A stretch of DNA of 64,000 nucleotides from Pyxidicoccus trucidator (lineage in GTDB: Bacteria > Myxococcota > Myxococcia > Myxococcales > Myxococcaceae). The stretch spans positions 248,001 through 312,000 of the forward strand of contig NZ_JAAIXZ010000002.1 in the NCBI RefSeq assembly GCF_010894435.1, read 5' to 3'. Positions 54,880-62,275 of this stretch are shown piece after piece. The notes under the pieces were generated by a model. That model did not search any database. It saw only the letters and a program-made list of their open reading frames with translations, and was not told where the DNA came from. How positions within the stretch are numbered: the first letter of the stretch is position 1; each line of letters opens with the position of its first letter. A program made the translations under genes and the position numbers.

Positions 54880-56082
54880 ATGAGCCTCGCGGACCACCTC
54901 ACCGAACTCCGCTCGCGCCTGCTCCGGTGCACCATCGCGGTCGCCGTGCTGGGCACCATCTCGCTGCTCTTCGCCAAGCCCATCTTCGGCCTGTTGATGC
55001 GGCCGGTGCTGGAAGCGCTCCCCGAGGGCAGCCGCGCCCTCATCTACACGTCCGGCATCGAGGAGATAAACGTCCTCATGAAGGTGGGCGTGTACTGCGG
55101 CATCTTCCTCACCACGCCCGTCATCCTGCTGCAGATCTGGGGCTTCGTGTCCCCGGGCCTGTACCCGGAGGAGCGCCGCTTCGCCGCGCCCTTCGTCGCG
55201 TTCGGCTCCATCGCCTTCATCCTGGGCGCGTGCTTCTGCTACTTCGCGGTGCTGCCCTCCATGTTCAAGTTCCTCCTCAACGAGGAGGAGACGCTGGCGC
55301 TGGAGCAGCGGCTGGACACGGCCCGGCTGCGCGCGGACGACGCCCTGCGCTTCCTGCGCGTGGGCGACGCCGAGCGGGCGGGAGTGCTCGCGAAGGAGAC
55401 GAGCACCAGCCTCCGGACGGACGGCGAGGGCAAGGTGTCGGAGCCGCAGCAGGCCCCTGCGGTCAGCGTGGAGCTGAAGGCGCGGCTGGACGGCCTGGGC
55501 TCCCTGCTGGACGCGGCGTCGACCGGCTACTCCACGGAGCGGGGCGTGCTGCGCCAGGCGGTGGAGAAGCGGGTGGAGGCGGTGACGGCGTACGGGCGCC
55601 AGGACTACGTGGCGGCGGCGGCGGCCATGGACCAGTCGGCCAGCCTGCTGGCGGGCGTGGCGTCCACGCGCTCGGAGGAGCTGGCCGGACTGTGGAAGCT
55701 GGAGAAGGAGCTGGCCGCCGGGTACGCGCAGCATGACGCCGCGCGCTGGACGCGGCCCATGCTGTCCATGCACGAGCAGCTCTCCCTGGTGCTGCTGCTC
55801 ATCCTCGCCTTCGGCATCATCTTCGAGCTGCCGCTGGTGATGGCGCTGCTGGGCGTGGTGGGCGTGGTGCAGTCGAAGTGGCTCTTCCGCTACCAGCGCC
55901 ATGCCTTCGTGGTGTGCCTCATCGCCGCGGCCGTCATCACCCCCACCGGCGACGTGGTGAACCTGTCGCTGATGGCGGGCCCCATGCTGCTCTGCTACGA
56001 GCTGGGCGTGCTGCTGGTGTGGCTGGTGGAGCGGCGGCGCGCGCGCAACGAGGCGGAGACCGGTATCACCCCGGCGTCCTAG
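54880..56082 (+). CDS. tatC: TatC with enlarged TM3-TM4 loop
   Basis: A 400-residue TatC (about 250 is usual). The standard parts are present: MSLADHLTELRSRLLRC, MKVGVYCGIFLTTPVILLQIWGFVSPGLYPEERRF (the signal-peptide-binding cytoplasmic loop with the conserved Glu) and SMHEQLSLVLLLILAFGIIFELPLVMALLG, then AAVITPTGDVVNLSLMAGPM and CYELGVLLVWLVERR. Between TM3 (ending about 133) and TM4 (from about 294) lies a 160-residue insert, mostly helical and charged, with no Cys. By TatC topology it projects into the periplasm. The insert is unusual and may recruit a partner or help TatB/TatA assembly. Confidence 0.95.
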   Translation: MSLADHLTELRSRLLRCTIAVAVLGTISLLFAKPIFGLLMRPVLEALPEGSRALIYTSGIEEINVLMKVGVYCGIFLTTPVILLQIWGFVSPGLYPEERRFAAPFVAFGSIAFILGACFCYFAVLPSMFKFLLNEEETLALEQRLDTARLRADDALRFLRVGDAERAGVLAKETSTSLRTDGEGKVSEPQQAPAVSVELKARLDGLGSLLDAASTGYSTERGVLRQAVEKRVEAVTAYGRQDYVAAAAAMDQSASLLAGVASTRSEELAGLWKLEKELAAGYAQHDAARWTRPMLSMHEQLSLVLLLILAFGIIFELPLVMALLGVVGVVQSKWLFRYQRHAFVVCLIAAAVITPTGDVVNLSLMAGPMLLCYELGVLLVWLVERRRARNEAETGITPAS

Positions 56083-56098
56083 GTCGAGGAGACGTCCC

Positions 56099-57193
56099 AT
56101 GGTGGCGGTGTCTCGTCGGAACCTCCAGGCCAACCTGCGCTACCTGCGGGCGCTCACCCGGCGCTTCCGCACGACGCTGGTGCTGTCGGCGGCGCTGTTC
56201 CTGATTGGGCCGCTGCTGTTCTGCTGGCGCTACGTGCGGCAGGACGGCACGTCCCTCACCTTTGGCGAGGCGCTCCACCACGTCTACTTCCTGCTCTACG
56301 GCCAGCCCTCGCTGCCGTACGTGCACGACTGGCTCATCGAGCTGCTCAACCTGGTGATTCCGCCGGTGGGCATCGCCCTGGTGGTGGATGGCGTGGTGCG
56401 CTTCGCCTACCTCTTCTTCGCCCGGCACAAGAACGACAAGGAGTGGATAGAGGTGGTCACCGAGACGATGAAGGGACACGTCGTGGTGTGCGGGGCGGGG
56501 CGGGTGGGCTACCGCGTCGTCGCGCAGCTGCGGGAGATGGGCCGGGACGTGGTGGTGGTGGAGAAGCGCGAGGACGCCGCCTTCGTCTCCGCGCTGCGCG
56601 ACGAGCAGGTGCCCCTGCTCATCGACGACACGCGCAGCCCGCTGTGCCTGCCGCGCACCAACGTGAAGAATGCCTCCGCCATCGTCTGCGCCACGGACGA
56701 TGACCTGGCCAACCTGAACATCGCCCTGGACGCGCGCCGGCTCAACCCGGACATCCGCGTGGTCATCCGCCTGTTCGACGACGACCTGAGCGGCAAGGTG
56801 CGGGACACCTTCAAGGCGGAGGCGCTCTCCAGCTCGTCGCTGGCGGCCCCGGCCATGGCGCTGGCGGCCATGGACCCGCGCATCATCCACTCGTTCCACC
56901 TGGGCAAGCACCTGATGGTGGTCTCCCTCTTCGAGGCACGCGAGGGCCTGCCCGGACTGACGATTTCCAGCGTGCGCGACAGGTTCGGCGCGCTGTCGCT
57001 GTCGCTGGTGCGGGGGGCCACCGAGACGCTGCACCCCAGCGGTGACGAGGTCATCAAGGCCGGGGACGTGCTGTCGCTCCAGGCGTCGTACCCGGACTAC
57101 CGCCGGCTGCGGGCCTTCACGTGCGAGGCCGAGCCGCCGACGTGGTCCCACCACGAGCCGCCGGTGGTGCCGGGGCAGCGCAAGGTGGGGTGA
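56099..57193 (+). CDS. TrkA-N/TrkA-C protein with ion-channel-like helices lacking a K+ filter
   Basis: A 364-residue protein starting after GAGGAG. Two hydrophobic helices (about 22-42 and 78-104) flank a short segment EALHHVYFLLYGQPSLPYVHD that occupies the pore-loop place but lacks the TxGYG filter of potassium channels. A TrkA-N NAD-binding domain follows (VVVCGAGRVGYRVVAQLREMGRDVVVVEKRED, DDLANLNIALDARRLNPDIRVVIRL), then a TrkA-C domain (LTISSVRDRFGALSLSLVRGATETLHPSGDEVIKAGDVLSLQ). It is probably a nucleotide-gated membrane sensor or transporter-regulatory unit rather than a K+ channel. It converges on metX. Confidence 0.87.
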   Translation: MVAVSRRNLQANLRYLRALTRRFRTTLVLSAALFLIGPLLFCWRYVRQDGTSLTFGEALHHVYFLLYGQPSLPYVHDWLIELLNLVIPPVGIALVVDGVVRFAYLFFARHKNDKEWIEVVTETMKGHVVVCGAGRVGYRVVAQLREMGRDVVVVEKREDAAFVSALRDEQVPLLIDDTRSPLCLPRTNVKNASAIVCATDDDLANLNIALDARRLNPDIRVVIRLFDDDLSGKVRDTFKAEALSSSSLAAPAMALAAMDPRIIHSFHLGKHLMVVSLFEAREGLPGLTISSVRDRFGALSLSLVRGATETLHPSGDEVIKAGDVLSLQASYPDYRRLRAFTCEAEPPTWSHHEPPVVPGQRKVG

Positions 57194-57197
57194 GCCG

Positions 57198-57212
57198 CCA
57201 CGCGGCGCGTGG
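57198..57212. terminator. Convergent hairpin (TrkA-type gene / metX)
   Basis: CCACGC-GGC-GCGTGG is a perfect 6-3-6 inverted repeat in the 30-bp gap between the two stops. Confidence 0.45.
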
Positions 57213-57223
57213 AGGGCGCGGTG

Positions 57224-58504
57224 CTACGCCACCTGGACCCTGGCGCCTGAGGCCACGGGGAGCGTGAGCGCGCGGGTGAGCAGCGCGGCCATGGGCTCCC
57301 ACTCCACGAGGAATCCGTCATGCCCGTACGGGCTGGACAGCACGGCGTGCTCGGCATGGCGGCCGTGCTCGCGCAGGCGCCGGGTCAGGGCCTCCATGTG
57401 GTGCGGGAGGAAGAGCTGGTCTCGGTCGATGCCCACGCACAGCGCGCTCGCGCGGATGCGGGGCAGTCCTCCGTCCGGGCAGCGCGCGAGGTCATGGTGG
57501 TCCATGGCGCCCAGCTGCGCCAGGTAGGCGCGTGCGTCGAAGCGTGCCTCCAGCTTGCGGCCCTGGTGCTCCAGGTAGCTCTGCACGGGGTAGAGGGCTC
57601 GTGAGGACCACTCGGGAGGACGTGCCTGGTGCGTCTGCAGTGCCGCCTCCGCGCGGTAGGTGAGCATGGCGAGCTGCCGGGCCAGCTCCAGCCCCCGGTG
57701 TGGCGCCTCGGGAAAGCCCGGGTCCAATAGCAGCGCCTGCCGGGCCACGTGGTTGAAGCCCACCACCCAGGCGGTGGCGGACTCGGCGGTGGCGATGGGG
57801 GCCATGCGCGCGAAGCGCTCCGGTGCCAGCGCCGCGAGGCAGAGGACCACCATGCCTCCCAGCGAGCCTCCCGTCACGAGCGCCACCTCGTCCACGTCCA
57901 GCGCGTCCAGCGCCAGGAGGATGCTGCGTGCCTGGTCCCACGGCGTGACGGTGGCGGGAAGCTGCTGCTCGTCCTGCCGCAGGTCTCCCTTCTCCACCGG
58001 AGGCGGTGGTCCGAAGCGCGCGTCGTCCAGCCTCCCCGGAAAGCCCTCGTCGGCGGGACCGGTGGTGCCGTAGCAGGAGCCCAGGTTGTTGAAGCACAGC
58101 AACCGCACGCGCGTAGGGTCCAGCGCGCGCCCCGGGCCGATGAGCGGCTCCCACCAGCCGCCCTCTCCCCCCGCGCGCATGTCGCCGGTGAGCGCGTGCA
58201 CCACCAGCACGGTGGGCACCGGAGGCGGCGTGCGGGCCGGGCCACGGGGGCGGGCGCGCTCGGCGGCTTCGCGCTGCTCGGTGGTGGTGCGGCGGATGAC
58301 GCGCAGGGTGATGTCGCGGGCCTCCTCGTCGGAGAGGACGCGGGCGCGCGAGTGCAGCCAGGGGAGGTCCTCCTCGGGGCCCCACCACCAGCCGCGCACC
58401 AGGTGAAGCGGGAGGCGCGCTCCGGCCTCCAGCTTCAGGCCGGGGAGCGACAGGTCGAAGAGGCGCGGGGCCGACGTGGGGAAGGGGACGATGGACGTGG
58501 ACAT
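57224..58504 (-). CDS. metX: Homoserine O-acyltransferase-like protein (MetX family)
   Basis: A 426-residue alpha/beta-hydrolase-fold protein (MetX is about 380). Hallmarks are VLVVHALTGDMRA, LCFNNLGSCYGTTGP, the nucleophile in VTGGSLGGMVVL, and DRDQLF and YGHDGFLVEWEPM with the Asp and His of the triad. An inserted Arg/Thr-rich segment (about 60-100) accounts for the extra length. It O-acylates homoserine (acetyl- or succinyl-) at the entry to methionine synthesis, which fits the Met/Cys-type leader upstream. Acyl-donor preference is not decidable from sequence. Confidence 0.88.
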   Translation of the reverse strand: MSTSIVPFPTSAPRLFDLSLPGLKLEAGARLPLHLVRGWWWGPEEDLPWLHSRARVLSDEEARDITLRVIRRTTTEQREAAERARPRGPARTPPPVPTVLVVHALTGDMRAGGEGGWWEPLIGPGRALDPTRVRLLCFNNLGSCYGTTGPADEGFPGRLDDARFGPPPPVEKGDLRQDEQQLPATVTPWDQARSILLALDALDVDEVALVTGGSLGGMVVLCLAALAPERFARMAPIATAESATAWVVGFNHVARQALLLDPGFPEAPHRGLELARQLAMLTYRAEAALQTHQARPPEWSSRALYPVQSYLEHQGRKLEARFDARAYLAQLGAMDHHDLARCPDGGLPRIRASALCVGIDRDQLFLPHHMEALTRRLREHGRHAEHAVLSSPYGHDGFLVEWEPMAALLTRALTLPVASGARVQVA

Positions 58505-58560
58505 GGGACGCGGTTCCTCGGCGGAAGGGGGCGAGGGGAGAGCGCGCGTCCAGGAACGAC

Positions 58561-58693
58561 GAAGCCCACCAACCCTCGCGGGTGGGTGGGCTCCAGTGGC
58601 TCGTCAGTGTCGGAGTGACGGACGTCAGCCGACGCTGGCGGGCTGGAGCCCACCTGGCTTCGACATTCGACACATGGAGCGGAAGTTCGTCAT
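58561..58693 (-). ncRNA. Structured leader with alternative hairpins upstream of metX
   Basis: In the transcript read on the minus strand, region 1 (GGTGGGCTCCAG, from 58643-58654) can pair perfectly over 12 bp with region 2 (CTGGAGCCCACC, from 58585-58596). Region 2 can instead pair over 10 bp with region 3 (GGTGGGCTTC, from 58561-58570), closing a hairpin whose inner ACCC/GGGT stem is capped by a GCGA tetraloop. The two folds exclude each other, the hallmark of attenuation or a switch. A short reading frame with Met and Cys codons covers region 1. No known SAM riboswitch consensus is seen. It ends 57 nt before the metX ATG. Confidence 0.5.
58625..58693 (-). CDS. Candidate Met/Cys leader peptide
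   Basis: A 22-codon frame beginning MTNFRSMCRMSK, or from the second ATG (58675) MCRMSK, and ending at a TGA (58627-58625). It contains three Met and one Cys codon clustered in its first ten residues and overlaps attenuator region 1. No clear Shine-Dalgarno precedes either ATG, so translation is uncertain. Confidence 0.25.
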   Translation of the reverse strand: MTNFRSMCRMSKPGGLQPASVG

Positions 58694-58987
58694 TCGCCAG
58701 TACGGATAGCCCCGTGCCCGGCATGAGTCAAGCCGCGCGTCCGTGACGAGCGTTGGGTGGCGCGCACTGGCCGCTTCATTCCGGAGGTGGGGTGGTTTCG
58801 CGCACGGTCAGCTTCTTGAAGCGCTGCTCACGGACCTTGTCGTTGCGCGCGATGCGGAGGGACGGGAGCGTGGTGTGGGTGAGGTTGGGCTGTTCGTCGT
58901 GCCGAATCCGTCTATTCCCGGGATGTCAGGGCCTGCGGAAAGGCTTCGTCCTCCCTGCCGCAGTCCCTACTCACCCCTGGAGGTCTC

Positions 58988-60229
58988 ATGAAGCATCTGC
59001 TGTTTTTCGCGGCGCTCGCCGTCACGGCGACGGCATCCGCCAAGCCCAACGCCCCGCTGTACGCCACCGGTGCCGGCCCCGGCGGAGGCCCGGCGGTGAA
59101 GACGTTCGACCCGAATACCAATCACAACTGGGTCTCCTTCTATGCCTACGAGTCCACGATGAGCGTGGGCGTGGAGATGGCCACCGGCCGCGTCACCACG
59201 AACTGGCGCTCGGACATCGTCACCGGCACCAGCGACGGGGGTGGCCCGCTGGTGAAGGTGCTGGACCCCAACAACGGCGCGGTGCTCAGCCAGTTCTTCG
59301 CCTACGACTCGAACTTCCGTGGCGGTGTCTTCGTGGCCACGGGCGACGTGGACGGAGACGGCTACGACGAGGTCATCACCGCGCTAGGTCGTGGCCATGG
59401 TCCCCTGGTGCGCGTGTGGAAGATCAACGGCGGCCCCTGGCTCATGCATGAGTTCTGGGCCTACGACCCGGGCTTCACCGGCGGCGTGCGGCTGGGCGCG
59501 GGTGACGTCACGCGGGATGGTGTCTCGGAGATTGTCACCGTCCCCGGCCCGGGTGGCGGCCCGCACGTGCGGGTGTTCAACCGCTGGGGCGGCGAGCTGC
59601 ATGGCTACCTCGCGCAGGTGCCGAGGAAGCCCTGGGACAACAGCTTCTATACGAATGGCTACCGCGTGGCGGTGGGCAGCGACCCGTGGGGGAACCCGGA
59701 GCTCTACGTCTCCGGCAGCCAGTGGCGGTTCTTCACGCACTTCCAGCGGAGCGATGACTGCCAGATTCCCATCATCATCGTGGCGCCCAACTTCGTCCGG
59801 AAGGCGTACTGGGTGCTGACTCCGTACGTCCACGTGCTGCGCATCCCGGACGGCGCGAAGCTGGCCGAGTTCTCCACCGAGGCCCTCAACACGGGCTTCC
59901 TGGGGCAGGAGGTCTCGTACGCGGAATACAAGAGCCTCTGCGAGCCCGGCTACATCGCTTGCAACATCTTCTCCTACCCACTGGCGAACAATGGTGAGCC
60001 GGACTACTCCGCCCCGGTGGCCACGCTGCAACAGCCCGGCGTCGGGCCGCGCGTGCTCGCTGGCAGTCCGGAGGTGAAGCTCGGGACGGGCGTCGCCGCG
60101 TGCTACTACGACACGATGTTCGCGCCCGGCACGCTCAAGCTCTACGAGCGGTGGGGCGCGGCGCTCTGGTCCTTCCAGCCGTATGGCCACTTCTACGGTG
60201 GCGTGCGGCCGGCGACGAACAACGACTGA
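58988..60229 (+). CDS. Secreted FG-GAP/VCBS-repeat protein
   Basis: A 413-residue protein with signal peptide MKHLLFFAALAVTATASA. Three to four FG-GAP-type repeats follow, each of the form GGGPxVxVxD...FxAYDxxFxGGVxxATGDVDGDGxDE (for example SFYAYESTMSVGVEM, FFAYDSNFRGGVFVATGDVDGDGYDEVI, FWAYDPGFTGGVRLGAGDVTRDGVSEIVTVPGPGGGPHVRV), predicted to form part of a beta-propeller, with DxDxDG calcium loops. The second half (about 215-413) is a Cys-containing, aromatic-rich domain not recognised. It is exported; partner unknown. Confidence 0.85.
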   Translation: MKHLLFFAALAVTATASAKPNAPLYATGAGPGGGPAVKTFDPNTNHNWVSFYAYESTMSVGVEMATGRVTTNWRSDIVTGTSDGGGPLVKVLDPNNGAVLSQFFAYDSNFRGGVFVATGDVDGDGYDEVITALGRGHGPLVRVWKINGGPWLMHEFWAYDPGFTGGVRLGAGDVTRDGVSEIVTVPGPGGGPHVRVFNRWGGELHGYLAQVPRKPWDNSFYTNGYRVAVGSDPWGNPELYVSGSQWRFFTHFQRSDDCQIPIIIVAPNFVRKAYWVLTPYVHVLRIPDGAKLAEFSTEALNTGFLGQEVSYAEYKSLCEPGYIACNIFSYPLANNGEPDYSAPVATLQQPGVGPRVLAGSPEVKLGTGVAACYYDTMFAPGTLKLYERWGAALWSFQPYGHFYGGVRPATNND

Positions 60230-60581
60230 TGCGCAGCGTGTAGCGGTGTCGAGGCCAGGGGGATGTCGGGCGCGACGTGCATTCCCTCTGCCTCACGCGC
60301 TTCCCGGTCGCTCACCCGGTCGCGGCCCGACCCGAGCCGGGCCTGAAGGCTTCCTGTTCAGTTCGCCTCACCCGCCTCCGGAACGACTCGCCGTAAGGAC
60401 GGCCCGAGCCGGCCGGGGGCGAGTCCGGAGGCGTCCTGTTCGGGAATGTCGGGACATTTCGCCGCGCAAATCCCCCGACATTTCCGAACAGCACGGTCCA
60501 GGAGTGCTCCCGGGAGGGCCCGCGTGCGCGCGAAGGTCGGCGAGGCCGGTCATGTGGTGCCCCTGCCGGGTGCCGGAGTCG
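60230..60581. other. Intergenic region with large inverted repeats
   Basis: 352 bp between converging genes. No gene-like frame stands out. It holds two inverted repeats described in the next entry. Confidence 0.6.
60374..60490. repeat. Two tandem inverted repeats, GACATTTC half-sites
   Basis: Hairpin A: GCCTCCGGAACGACTCGCC (60374-60392) faces GGCGAGTCCGGAGGC (60418-60432), with a 3-nt bulge. Hairpin B: TGTTCGGGAATGTCGGG (60437-60453) faces CCCGACATTTCCGAACA (60474-60490), 17 bp with one G-T mismatch, loop 20 nt. Inside B is a 6-2-6 palindrome AATGTC-GG-GACATT (60445-60458). This could be a bidirectional terminator, an RNA structure, or a decayed element. It is not repeated elsewhere that I could see in the window. 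Confidence 0.6.
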
Positions 60582-61223
60582 TCAGGCCGTCAGCGCGGCG
60601 ACGACGTGCGCGTTGGCGGTGTACGGCGCCAGCGCGCCGATGTGGCCGGGCCGGGCCTTCACCCGCTCCAGCCAGGCCGACACCGTGGGGTACCGCTCCA
60701 GGTCGAAGCCACCCTCGGGCGCCACGTGTGCGTACGCATATAGCGCGAGGTCCGCCACGGTGGGGTGCTCGCCCACGAGGAACTCGCGCTCGCGCAGGTG
60801 GCGCTCCAGCGCGGCGAGCGCCTCATGGCCCCGCTCCACGCGCAGGCGGAAGGCCTCGGGGTAGCGGCTGGCGCGGCCCGTCAGGTGCCAGAAGCGCACG
60901 GTGCCCACATTGGGCTCCAGGCTGTTCTGCTCGAAGAAGAGCCACTGGTTCACCTGGGCGCGAGCGAAGGCGTCGTCCGGCAGCAGCGGCGTGCCCTGCG
61001 CGAGGTAGAGGAGGATGGCATTGGACTCCGCGAGGAAGCGGCCCGGCTCGGGCTCGAGCACGGGGATGCGTCCATCGGGGTTCTTGTTCCGGAGGAAGTC
61101 CTCGGTGCGGCTCTCGCCCGAGAAGATGTCCACCGGCACCAGCTCGTACGGCCTGCCGAGCCAGGAGAGCAGGAGGCGGACCTTGTAGCCGTTGGCGGAA
61201 GGAGGATAGTCGTAGAGGCGCAT
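60582..61223 (-). CDS. Glutathione S-transferase family protein
   Basis: A 213-residue GST from ATG 61223 (MRLYDYPPSANGYKVRLLLSWLGRPYELVPVDI). The thioredoxin-like N-domain has GRIPVLEPEPGRFLAESNAILLYLAQ (the cis-Pro and Glu-Ser glutathione motif), followed by the helical C-domain (VERGHEALAALERHLREREFLVGEHPTVADLALYAYAHV, with the N-capping box). It conjugates glutathione or acts as a thiol chaperone; substrate unknown. Divergent from the Ada-like gene by 167 bp. Confidence 0.95.
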   Translation of the reverse strand: MRLYDYPPSANGYKVRLLLSWLGRPYELVPVDIFSGESRTEDFLRNKNPDGRIPVLEPEPGRFLAESNAILLYLAQGTPLLPDDAFARAQVNQWLFFEQNSLEPNVGTVRFWHLTGRASRYPEAFRLRVERGHEALAALERHLREREFLVGEHPTVADLALYAYAHVAPEGGFDLERYPTVSAWLERVKARPGHIGALAPYTANAHVVAALTA

Positions 61224-61390
61224 CGGTGCTCCGGGAGAGGGTGGACGCGAGACAGGGTAGGGAGCACGCCCCGGGCGGACGACCCGCTCCTTGCTGCGTC
61301 CGGCGGGGCGAGGGGGCGCAAGAACCGGGTTGTTCCCGCGCGCCCCGGCGGCCATATCGGTGTGGAAGCGCCCTTCCCAGGAGCCGTGGC

Positions 61391-62275
61391 ATGGCGACCA
61401 GCGACTACGCCCGAATCGAGCAGGCCATCCTCTACCTCGACGTCCATGCACGCGAGCAGCCGTCGCTCGACGACGTCGCGGCGCACGTGGGCCTGAGCCC
61501 GTTCCACTTCCAGCGGCTCTTCACGCGCTGGGCAGGCATCAGCCCCAAGCGCTTCCTCCAGGTGCACACGTTCAGCTCGGCCCGGCGCCTGCTCGCCGAG
61601 CGGCGCAGCGTGCTCGACACGTCCTACACGGTGGGCCTGTCCGGCGGAGGCCGGCTGCACGAGCTCTTCGTCACCCTCACCGCGATGACGCCGGGCGAGT
61701 TCAAGCAGGGGGGCGAGGGGCTCACCGTGCGGTACGGCATCCATCCGTCCCCGTTCGGCGACTGCCTCATCGCCGCCTGTGAGCGCGGCATCTGCGGCCT
61801 CCACTTCCTCACCGGCGAGTCGGCGGAAGAGGCCCTGGCCTCGCTGCGCGCGCAGTGGCCCCGGGCCGCCTTCGTGGAGTCTCGGGACGGCACAGCGTCC
61901 TGGGCGGAGCGCATCTTCCCCGAGCAGCCGCCGCGTGAGCCCACGCCGCTATCGGTGCTGGTGAAGGGTACGCCCTTCCAGGTGCAGGTGTGGCAGGCGT
62001 TGCTGCGCATCTCCCCCGGCCAGGTCGCGACGTACGAGGACCTTGCCCGGGCCATCGGCAATCCGAAGGCGGTGCGCGCGGTGGGCTCGGCGGTGGGGGA
62101 CAACCCCGTGGCGCTGCTCATCCCCTGCCACCGGGTGCTGCGGAAGACGGGCGTCTTCGGGGACTACCGCTGGGGGCCGGCGCGCAAGCAGGTCATGCTC
62201 GCGTGGGAGTCGCTGCGGTACGGCGCGGAGAACGAGGCGGGGATGGTCAGTGAGGCGGGAGTGGGAAGCGCCTGA
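61391..62275 (+). CDS. Ada-like AraC-HTH/O6-methylguanine-DNA methyltransferase fusion
   Basis: A 294-residue protein from ATG 61391 (MATSDYARIEQAILYLDVH). An AraC-type HTH (residues about 10-110, LDDVAAHVGLSPFHFQRLFTRWAGISPKRFLQ) is followed by a methyltransferase domain with SPGQVATYEDLARAIGNPKAVRAVGSAVGDNPVALLIPCHRVLRKTG (catalytic Cys in PCHRV). It lacks the N-terminal Cys4 zinc domain of E. coli Ada, like the split or reduced AdaA-AdaB forms. It removes alkyl groups from guanine and may regulate genes, possibly including itself or the divergent GST. Confidence 0.93.
   Translation: MATSDYARIEQAILYLDVHAREQPSLDDVAAHVGLSPFHFQRLFTRWAGISPKRFLQVHTFSSARRLLAERRSVLDTSYTVGLSGGGRLHELFVTLTAMTPGEFKQGGEGLTVRYGIHPSPFGDCLIAACERGICGLHFLTGESAEEALASLRAQWPRAAFVESRDGTASWAERIFPEQPPREPTPLSVLVKGTPFQVQVWQALLRISPGQVATYEDLARAIGNPKAVRAVGSAVGDNPVALLIPCHRVLRKTGVFGDYRWGPARKQVMLAWESLRYGAENEAGMVSEAGVGSA

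Follow-up and report, generated by a model that had tools for sequence, protein, structure and literature searches.

The window, i.e., the whole 64,000-nt stretch of Pyxidicoccus trucidator DNA that was analysed, carries a metX-like gene on its minus strand, and the features discussed here lie in the leader before that gene. A preliminary description had reported two mutually exclusive pairings and a 22-codon frame in this leader, and these were confirmed on the minus-strand sequence: GGTGGGCTCCAG (region 1, 58643–58654) is fully complementary to CTGGAGCCCACC (region 2, 58585–58596) at 12/12 positions, and region 2 is also able to pair with GGTGGGCT (region 3, 58563–58570), around CCC-GCGA-GGG. 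To this we add that region 1 can form a local hairpin with GCCCGCC (58637–58643). The CCC-GCGA-GGG stem is part of the region 2/region 3 hairpin, so the local hairpin brings the number of competing pairings to three, not two. Regions 1, 2 and 3 are arms A, C and D below, and GCCCGCC is arm B. From promoter to gene, the features are:

58726–58731, minus strand: −35 box TTGACT, from the sequence and the leader comparison
58703–58708, minus strand: −10 box TATCCG, after a 17-nt spacer (fixed in the search), ending 9 nt before the leader ATG
58625–58693, minus strand: leader peptide frame coding MTNFRSMCRMSKPGGLQPASVG (ATG at 58693, stop TGA at 58625–58627; 22 codons with three Met, the start included, and one Cys); ATG...TGA in 54/54 leaders
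58664–58675, minus strand: candidate regulatory codons Met7 (58673–58675), Cys8 (58670–58672) and Met10 (58664–58666)
58643–58654, minus strand: region 1, arm A, with core GGTGGGC at 58648–58654
58637–58643, minus strand: arm B, GCCCGCC, pairing with A in the local hairpin or, in the long fold, with the bases immediately ahead of C
58609–58633, minus strand: small hairpin GTCGG/CCGAC whose loop holds the stop codon, absent from some sequences
58585–58596, minus strand: region 2, arm C, from the sequence and the leader comparison
58563–58592, minus strand: C:D hairpin with GCGA loop, terminator-like; arm D at 58563–58570
58552–58562, minus strand: tail TCGTCGTTCCT after the C:D hairpin; CGT invariant and its neighbours nearly so among 35 leaders
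57224–58504, minus strand: metX-like gene of the homoserine O-acetyltransferase family; MetX models lead the NCBIfam matches but fall short of their curated cut-offs (235.8 of 331 and 234.6 of 500 bits)

The transcript is predicted to start near 58694–58697, and judging from the sequence it is probably leaderless. A consensus scan at the window's leader found neither a terminator nor a promoter, and the tail of the C:D hairpin is poor in U. Elsewhere in the window (54880–56082, plus strand), a 400-aa TatC frame is matched by TatC models in two stretches, suggesting a long insertion.

A perfect helix of at least 12 bp appeared in 2/500 dinucleotide shuffles of the 143-nt leader, and the 236-nt leader has a folding z of −2.69, with 1/200 shuffles folding as well. 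The shuffled 12-bp helices and the GC-rich DNA are what can be said for chance inverted repeats or a repeat element, a reading we find scarcely credible given that placement before metY/metX is conserved in 54/54 leaders. The repeat element was rejected because DNA comparison within the window's own genome found no second copy of the leader, only the element's own other strand. For the leader, conservation across sequences is stronger evidence than shuffle statistics.

Conservation of the leader in Myxococcaceae

When 61 genomes were searched with the leader DNA, matches were found in 27/27 genomes of the window's genus (its own included) and in one genome of another genus. Matches in these 28 genomes span 118 to 256 of 256 bases; two further genomes matched in short pieces only. 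With the MetX protein as query, named genomes yielded 26 loci, and blastn found the leader in 18 of them. The other eight are L076, where the contig starts too near metX, L082, which has a hairpin-less leader, and six distant loci (L083–L088). Alignment A1 and covariance model R1 comprise 35 leaders, i.e., the 28 from whole genomes and seven of the 18 from named loci, the other 11 being excluded as apparent duplicates of genomes already in the set.

R1 matched 61/96 genomes of the family at E below 0.001, with E 5.3e-11 or better in 57/96, and 39/96 were without a strong match. Of the remaining four among the 61, G091 has a Cys leader and G035 a leader-like element; the match in G093 lies beside a tRNA-like stretch, and that in G102 is short and partial. 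Across the class, 65/147 genomes matched, and the four outside the family were weak: three hairpins (L158, L165 and L166) and an ilv-like leader (L163). By eye, L158 is a hairpin behind an open frame, and L163 (2383–2493, minus strand), from another family of the order, has an ilv-like leader peptide (SISLIGLILVVL) and a hairpin before an acetolactate-synthase-like frame. Also by eye, the weak R1 match at L164 lies beside a tRNA-like stretch. With L155, there are six such weak R1 matches, none of them a Met leader.

A similar tail follows hairpins behind open frames in three related loci, where the frames are one of 628 codons (L155), an HU-like one (L165) and a cold-shock-like one (L166), the latter two names being read from C-terminal residues. 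The exact tail GGGCTTCGTCGTT, with one mismatch allowed in the window, has a single site in the own genome and in the window, and was dropped as a common genome-wide terminator signature. Support for the tail comes from the three related loci.

In total 54 leaders were examined, 35 plus 19 further ones, some being the same genome twice (a named and an unnamed record). They comprise 47 distinct sequences, and the 46 with the hairpin kept enter the folding counts. CTTGAC[TA] lies within 200 nt of the hairpin in 35/35 leaders, as the search pattern required, and TTGAC is present in 19/19 of the further ones. Every leader (54/54) has an ATG...TGA frame of 22–25 codons with 2–5 internal Met, and its ATG lies 8–10 nt past the −10 box; L042, L060 and L078 have an earlier ATG too, and the one at this distance was chosen, as elsewhere. 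Such spacing is too short to hold a Shine-Dalgarno site and so suggests that the transcript is leaderless.

Arm A keeps its place in the frame: the distance from ATG is 39 nt (19 leaders), 42 nt (3), 45 nt (31) or 48 nt (1), and A is in frame in 54/54. The TGA comes seven codons after Gly-Gly in 40 leaders and six codons after it in 14, and the stop-to-loop distance takes every value from 39 to 46 nt (34/35 leaders; L042 was parsed from another ATG). The competing arms are kept in 53/54 Met leaders, and the core GGTGGGC is identical in these 53 and also present in the other, L133, which is without C and D. The loss of the entire C:D region from L133 (2103–2210) could be a true deletion or an artefact of assembly; the metagenome-assembled genome L082 apparently represents the same contig.

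Cys is absent from 7/54 Met leaders and internal Met from none. The number of Cys codons is 0–3 (53 leaders), scattered in those inspected and without a Cys run. Before arm A, peptides within the genus are alike (MCRMSMPGG and near forms), as would be expected if the Met-rich peptide itself stalled the ribosome with SAM or Met as co-factor. However, peptides diverge between genera (e.g., MCMCSMPVPGG and CRRMQMPSGG), with Met density as their common trait, and the Cys leaders described below have an unrelated peptide with the same RNA arms, so we regard such nascent-peptide arrest as very improbable.

By tblastn, the gene directly downstream is metY (31 leaders) or metX (23) in all 54, with 45–190 nt to the first matched residue. 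The 23 metX-first leaders are all in the window's genus, where 4/27 genomes have metY between leader and metX. The metY protein of L064 (the one tested) is above the TIGR01326 cut-off, and the window's own genome has only distant metY homologues (34–47% identical). The simplest history would be an ancestral leader-metY-metX order, whose metY then dropped out of the operon in most members of the window's genus. A Myxococcus-like leader-metY-metX locus also occurs in a record titled Comamonas sp. KCTC 72670 (L071), which is probably mislabelled.

The preliminary description had proposed an attenuator with a Met leader peptide, and this is supported by the frame (54/54), by Met codons kept where Cys is lost, by metY or metX downstream (54/54) and by the arms (53/54).

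A sister leader with Cys codons and the pairing of shared arms

Secondary R1 matches revealed a sister set of leaders, and model R2 was built from 14 of them. Each has TTGACA, an ATG 10–12 nt after the −10 box and a frame with 2–6 Cys (often CCCC), followed by arms A, C and D, whose core letters are mostly as in the Met leaders; the peptide is unrelated. This combination of the same arms with Cys codons is new here. At E below 0.001, R2 had matches in 58/96 genomes of the family, and many of them were to Met leaders. A Cys leader at E 3.5e-14 or better is present in 40/96 family genomes, including the window's own, and in 0/16 genomes of genus g31. Since R2 matches Met leaders at 33–58 bits, the two types are likely related, with the caveat that the hairpin may give much of the score.

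The window's own genome has a poly-Cys sister leader, MSTPLSTACCCCHAPAVGACPPVA (L182; G000:C20:141900–142040), before a sulfate-binding protein whose gene starts 54 nt after the match. Downstream of the 40 Cys leaders, the nearest match is to a sulfate-binding protein in 21 cases, to a porin in 16 and, at ~300 nt, to a Peripla_BP_2 protein in 3; this context comes from three query proteins only, so a smaller intervening gene is possible. In 11/16 porin-first cases, a sulfate-binding protein follows within the DNA compared. Three sulfate-binding proteins are above TIGR00971, and Pfam was used to check one porin and one Peripla_BP_2 protein. The preliminary description had suggested methionine or cysteine status as the signal at metX: the codons here point to methionine, whereas Cys codons mark the separate sister leader, mostly before sulfate-uptake genes.

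Further leaders of this kind were noticed. Archangium-like genomes have a third one (L199:2117–2263, L200:2486–2632 and a partial match in L201), with CSCRC or CCCRC in the peptide as read by eye; a TATATT box directly precedes its ATG. The frame after this leader looked porin-like, but tblastn with the L150 porin gave no match there. At L212:4560–4708 (minus strand), by eye, a short membrane-protein-like frame is preceded by a leader-like element that has CC codons but lacks a clear ATG.

Pairs were counted from motif-anchored arms in Met and Cys leaders together. A:C and C:D share C, and the seven core positions of each are paired in 91–93 of 93 leaders. For A:C, the paired fraction is 1.00 (rounded) in register versus 0.42–0.50 when slid. 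Arm A is in frame 0 in 53 Met leaders, and in Cys leaders it is in frame 2 (35) or frame 1 (5). As A is read in three frames between the leader types, it is the RNA of A that is conserved.

Within the C:D hairpin of Cys leaders, U-A replaces C-G at outer pair 1 (18 leaders) and at an inner pair (11 leaders), and A-U replaces G-C at outer pair 7 (1 leader). These changes are mostly common to whole clades and so represent few events. Because A hardly varies, A:C itself shows next to no covariation, with C-G changed to U-A once, and RNAalifold on the 35 Met leaders of A1 found both-sided changes in 1/27 pairs. Covariation, which the preliminary description had proposed as a check, was thus found to some extent at C:D and almost not at all at A:C. 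The case for A:C rests on the constancy of A across three frames more than on covariation.

The sister leader also bears on whether the element is a ligand-binding riboswitch (for SAM, SAH or homocysteine) in which the frame is incidental. The C:D sequence and GCGA loop are very highly conserved (35 aligned Met leaders) and the downstream genes belong to methionine synthesis, both as a riboswitch would have it. However, the frame, the Met codons and the in-frame position of A are all conserved as well, and the sister leader swaps Met codons for Cys together with other downstream genes. An Rfam search gave no matches up to E = 5 in window positions 56000–62000 and none at the gathering threshold for six related loci, so an Rfam riboswitch (SAM or other) or T-box was rejected. 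A riboswitch would not be expected to conserve a translated frame, and we therefore depart from the preliminary description's suggestion of a riboswitch or SAM sensing, giving it very little weight.

Ribosome position and the proposed attenuator

We consider the metX leader likely to be a methionine-responsive, ribosome-mediated transcription attenuator. A sigma-70-like promoter would start the RNA at or just before the ATG of the short Met-rich frame. When methionine is short, a stalled ribosome would leave A free for C, and B for the bases preceding C, in a single long hairpin; C would then be unable to pair with D, and RNA polymerase would continue into metX (or metY-metX). When methionine is plentiful, the ribosome would cross A and B to the UGA, C:D would pair and transcription would stop.

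The effect of ribosome position was computed with a thermodynamic footprint model, which ignores ribosome bulk and keeps unpaired the stretch that reaches 15 nt upstream and 12 nt downstream of the first base of the A-site codon. With the RNA ended at C, A:C forms in 46/46 distinct Met leaders when the ribosome is at the first internal Met and in 0/46 when it is on A; it still forms in 32/46 with the ribosome at the stop and in 35/46 without a ribosome. Once D is complete, C:D averages 0.79 under a stall, 0.98 with the ribosome at the stop and 0.86 free. C:D is weaker stalled than at the stop in 40/46 (no weakening in 6/46) and above 0.8 at the stop in 46/46. At equilibrium, a stall brings C:D below 0.5 in only 6/46, so most leaders would need kinetics, i.e., A:C forming before D emerges. 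In this model, ribosome position shifts the balance as expected (40/46); equilibrium alone is not decisive, and the order of synthesis would have to matter. For the window's own leader, C:D is 0.90 free, 0.09 stalled at Met7 and 0.95 at the stop.

The 46 distinct leaders have 91 Met in 465 codons in the open window and 39 Met in 543 codons beyond it, and in 36/46 one or more of the Met codons that precede A fall beyond this window. Among the 40 Cys leaders, the model has A:C in 32 with a stalled ribosome, in 0 with the ribosome on A, in 6 with it at the stop and in 16 without one. Their C:D is 0.84 stalled, 0.89 at the stop and 0.97 free, and 31/40 shift as expected; the first Cys codon is outside the open window in 4/40.

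Against the attenuator stand the U-poor tail, the negative consensus scan, the ribosome at the stop (which in the model fails to prevent A:C pairing), the small effect of a stall on C:D at equilibrium, the scarce covariation at A:C, the Met codons beyond the open window, the 39/96 family genomes without a strong match and the fact that initiation itself needs methionine. The U-poor tail and the lack of a consensus terminator would suit control of translation, or Rho-dependent termination, by the same leader peptide and stalling, instead of intrinsic termination at C:D, and mycobacterial poly-Cys leaderless ORFs are described as translation attenuators in PMC13236596 and PMC9031893. We judge this unlikely: C:D pairing survives C-G to U-A changes, a similar hairpin and tail occur behind open frames in the three related loci, and the distance to the next gene (metY 31, metX 23) ranges over 45–190 nt, which leaves a sequestering arm no conserved, fixed mRNA start region to act on.

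Transcription attenuation at C:D is the reading we prefer. It draws on the conserved frame, Met codons, arms, placement and gene context as observed, and on the computed effect of ribosome position on pairing; the leaderless start, termination at C:D and the methionine response are the parts we infer. An extension of this reading, to which we give even chances, is that one attenuator chassis (promoter, leaderless frame, A/C/D and mostly a GCGA loop) was duplicated in Myxococcaceae and re-addressed by codon swap: Met before metY/metX, Cys runs before sulfate uptake, and further Cys-type copies in Archangium-like genomes and one other. If so, a paralogous leader family would control sulfur amino-acid supply, and initiation on a leaderless AUG would add a second methionine dependence in the Met copy.

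Comparison with known systems

Methionine genes are usually said to be under SAM riboswitches, T-boxes or repressors. In the classical trp, his and ilv attenuators, the leader peptide carries codons for the pathway's own amino acid, and stalling decides between antiterminator and terminator. The metX leader is like these in its pathway amino-acid codons and in the predicted stall-dependent choice between an antiterminator and a terminator-like hairpin. It is unlike them in having Met as the residue, 8–10 nt from −10 box to ATG, a U-poor tail, and region 1 inside the peptide frame, after the first regulatory codons. As a case of classical attenuation, PMC13236596 gives ilvB1.

The leader and its RNA switch look able to raise methionine production when methionine is short, in predatory soil bacteria, and together with its Cys twin the conserved Met leader would give myxobacteria a translation-read sulfur amino-acid circuit. 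It also raises the question of how methionine can be sensed through codons when initiation itself needs it. In alphaproteobacteria, a SAM-II riboswitch is reported before metA/metZ (PMC9373788, PMC1273637); methionine-synthesis genes are common to both systems, and the metX leader differs in its conserved translated frame and in having no Rfam match.

We found no Met or Cys attenuator of myxobacteria in the open-access literature searched. The preliminary description had called the element possibly new, and this is tempered by the Streptomyces lividans metL leader peptide before metNIQ, a Met leader already predicted to be an attenuator, with termination reported as unclear (PMC8079986). As described there, metL is leaderless, as the metX leader probably is, and has several Met with Cys and Arg among them; methionine uptake genes lie downstream of it instead, and the likeness is one of description.

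The mycobacterial cys operons have poly-Cys leaderless ORFs (Canestrari 2020, as cited in PMC9031893 and PMC13236596), whose leaderless start and Cys runs are, as described there, close in design to the sister Cys leader. Cys leaders of Actinobacteria are reported to have no conserved terminator hairpins (Seliverstov 2005, PMC1262725). By that account the mycobacterial leaders differ from the myxobacterial sister leaders, whose hairpins are conserved and which stand before sulfate-binding, porin and other binding-protein genes. The window's leader differs further from the mycobacterial type, as it has Met codons and no Cys run, whereas most sister leaders do have such a run.
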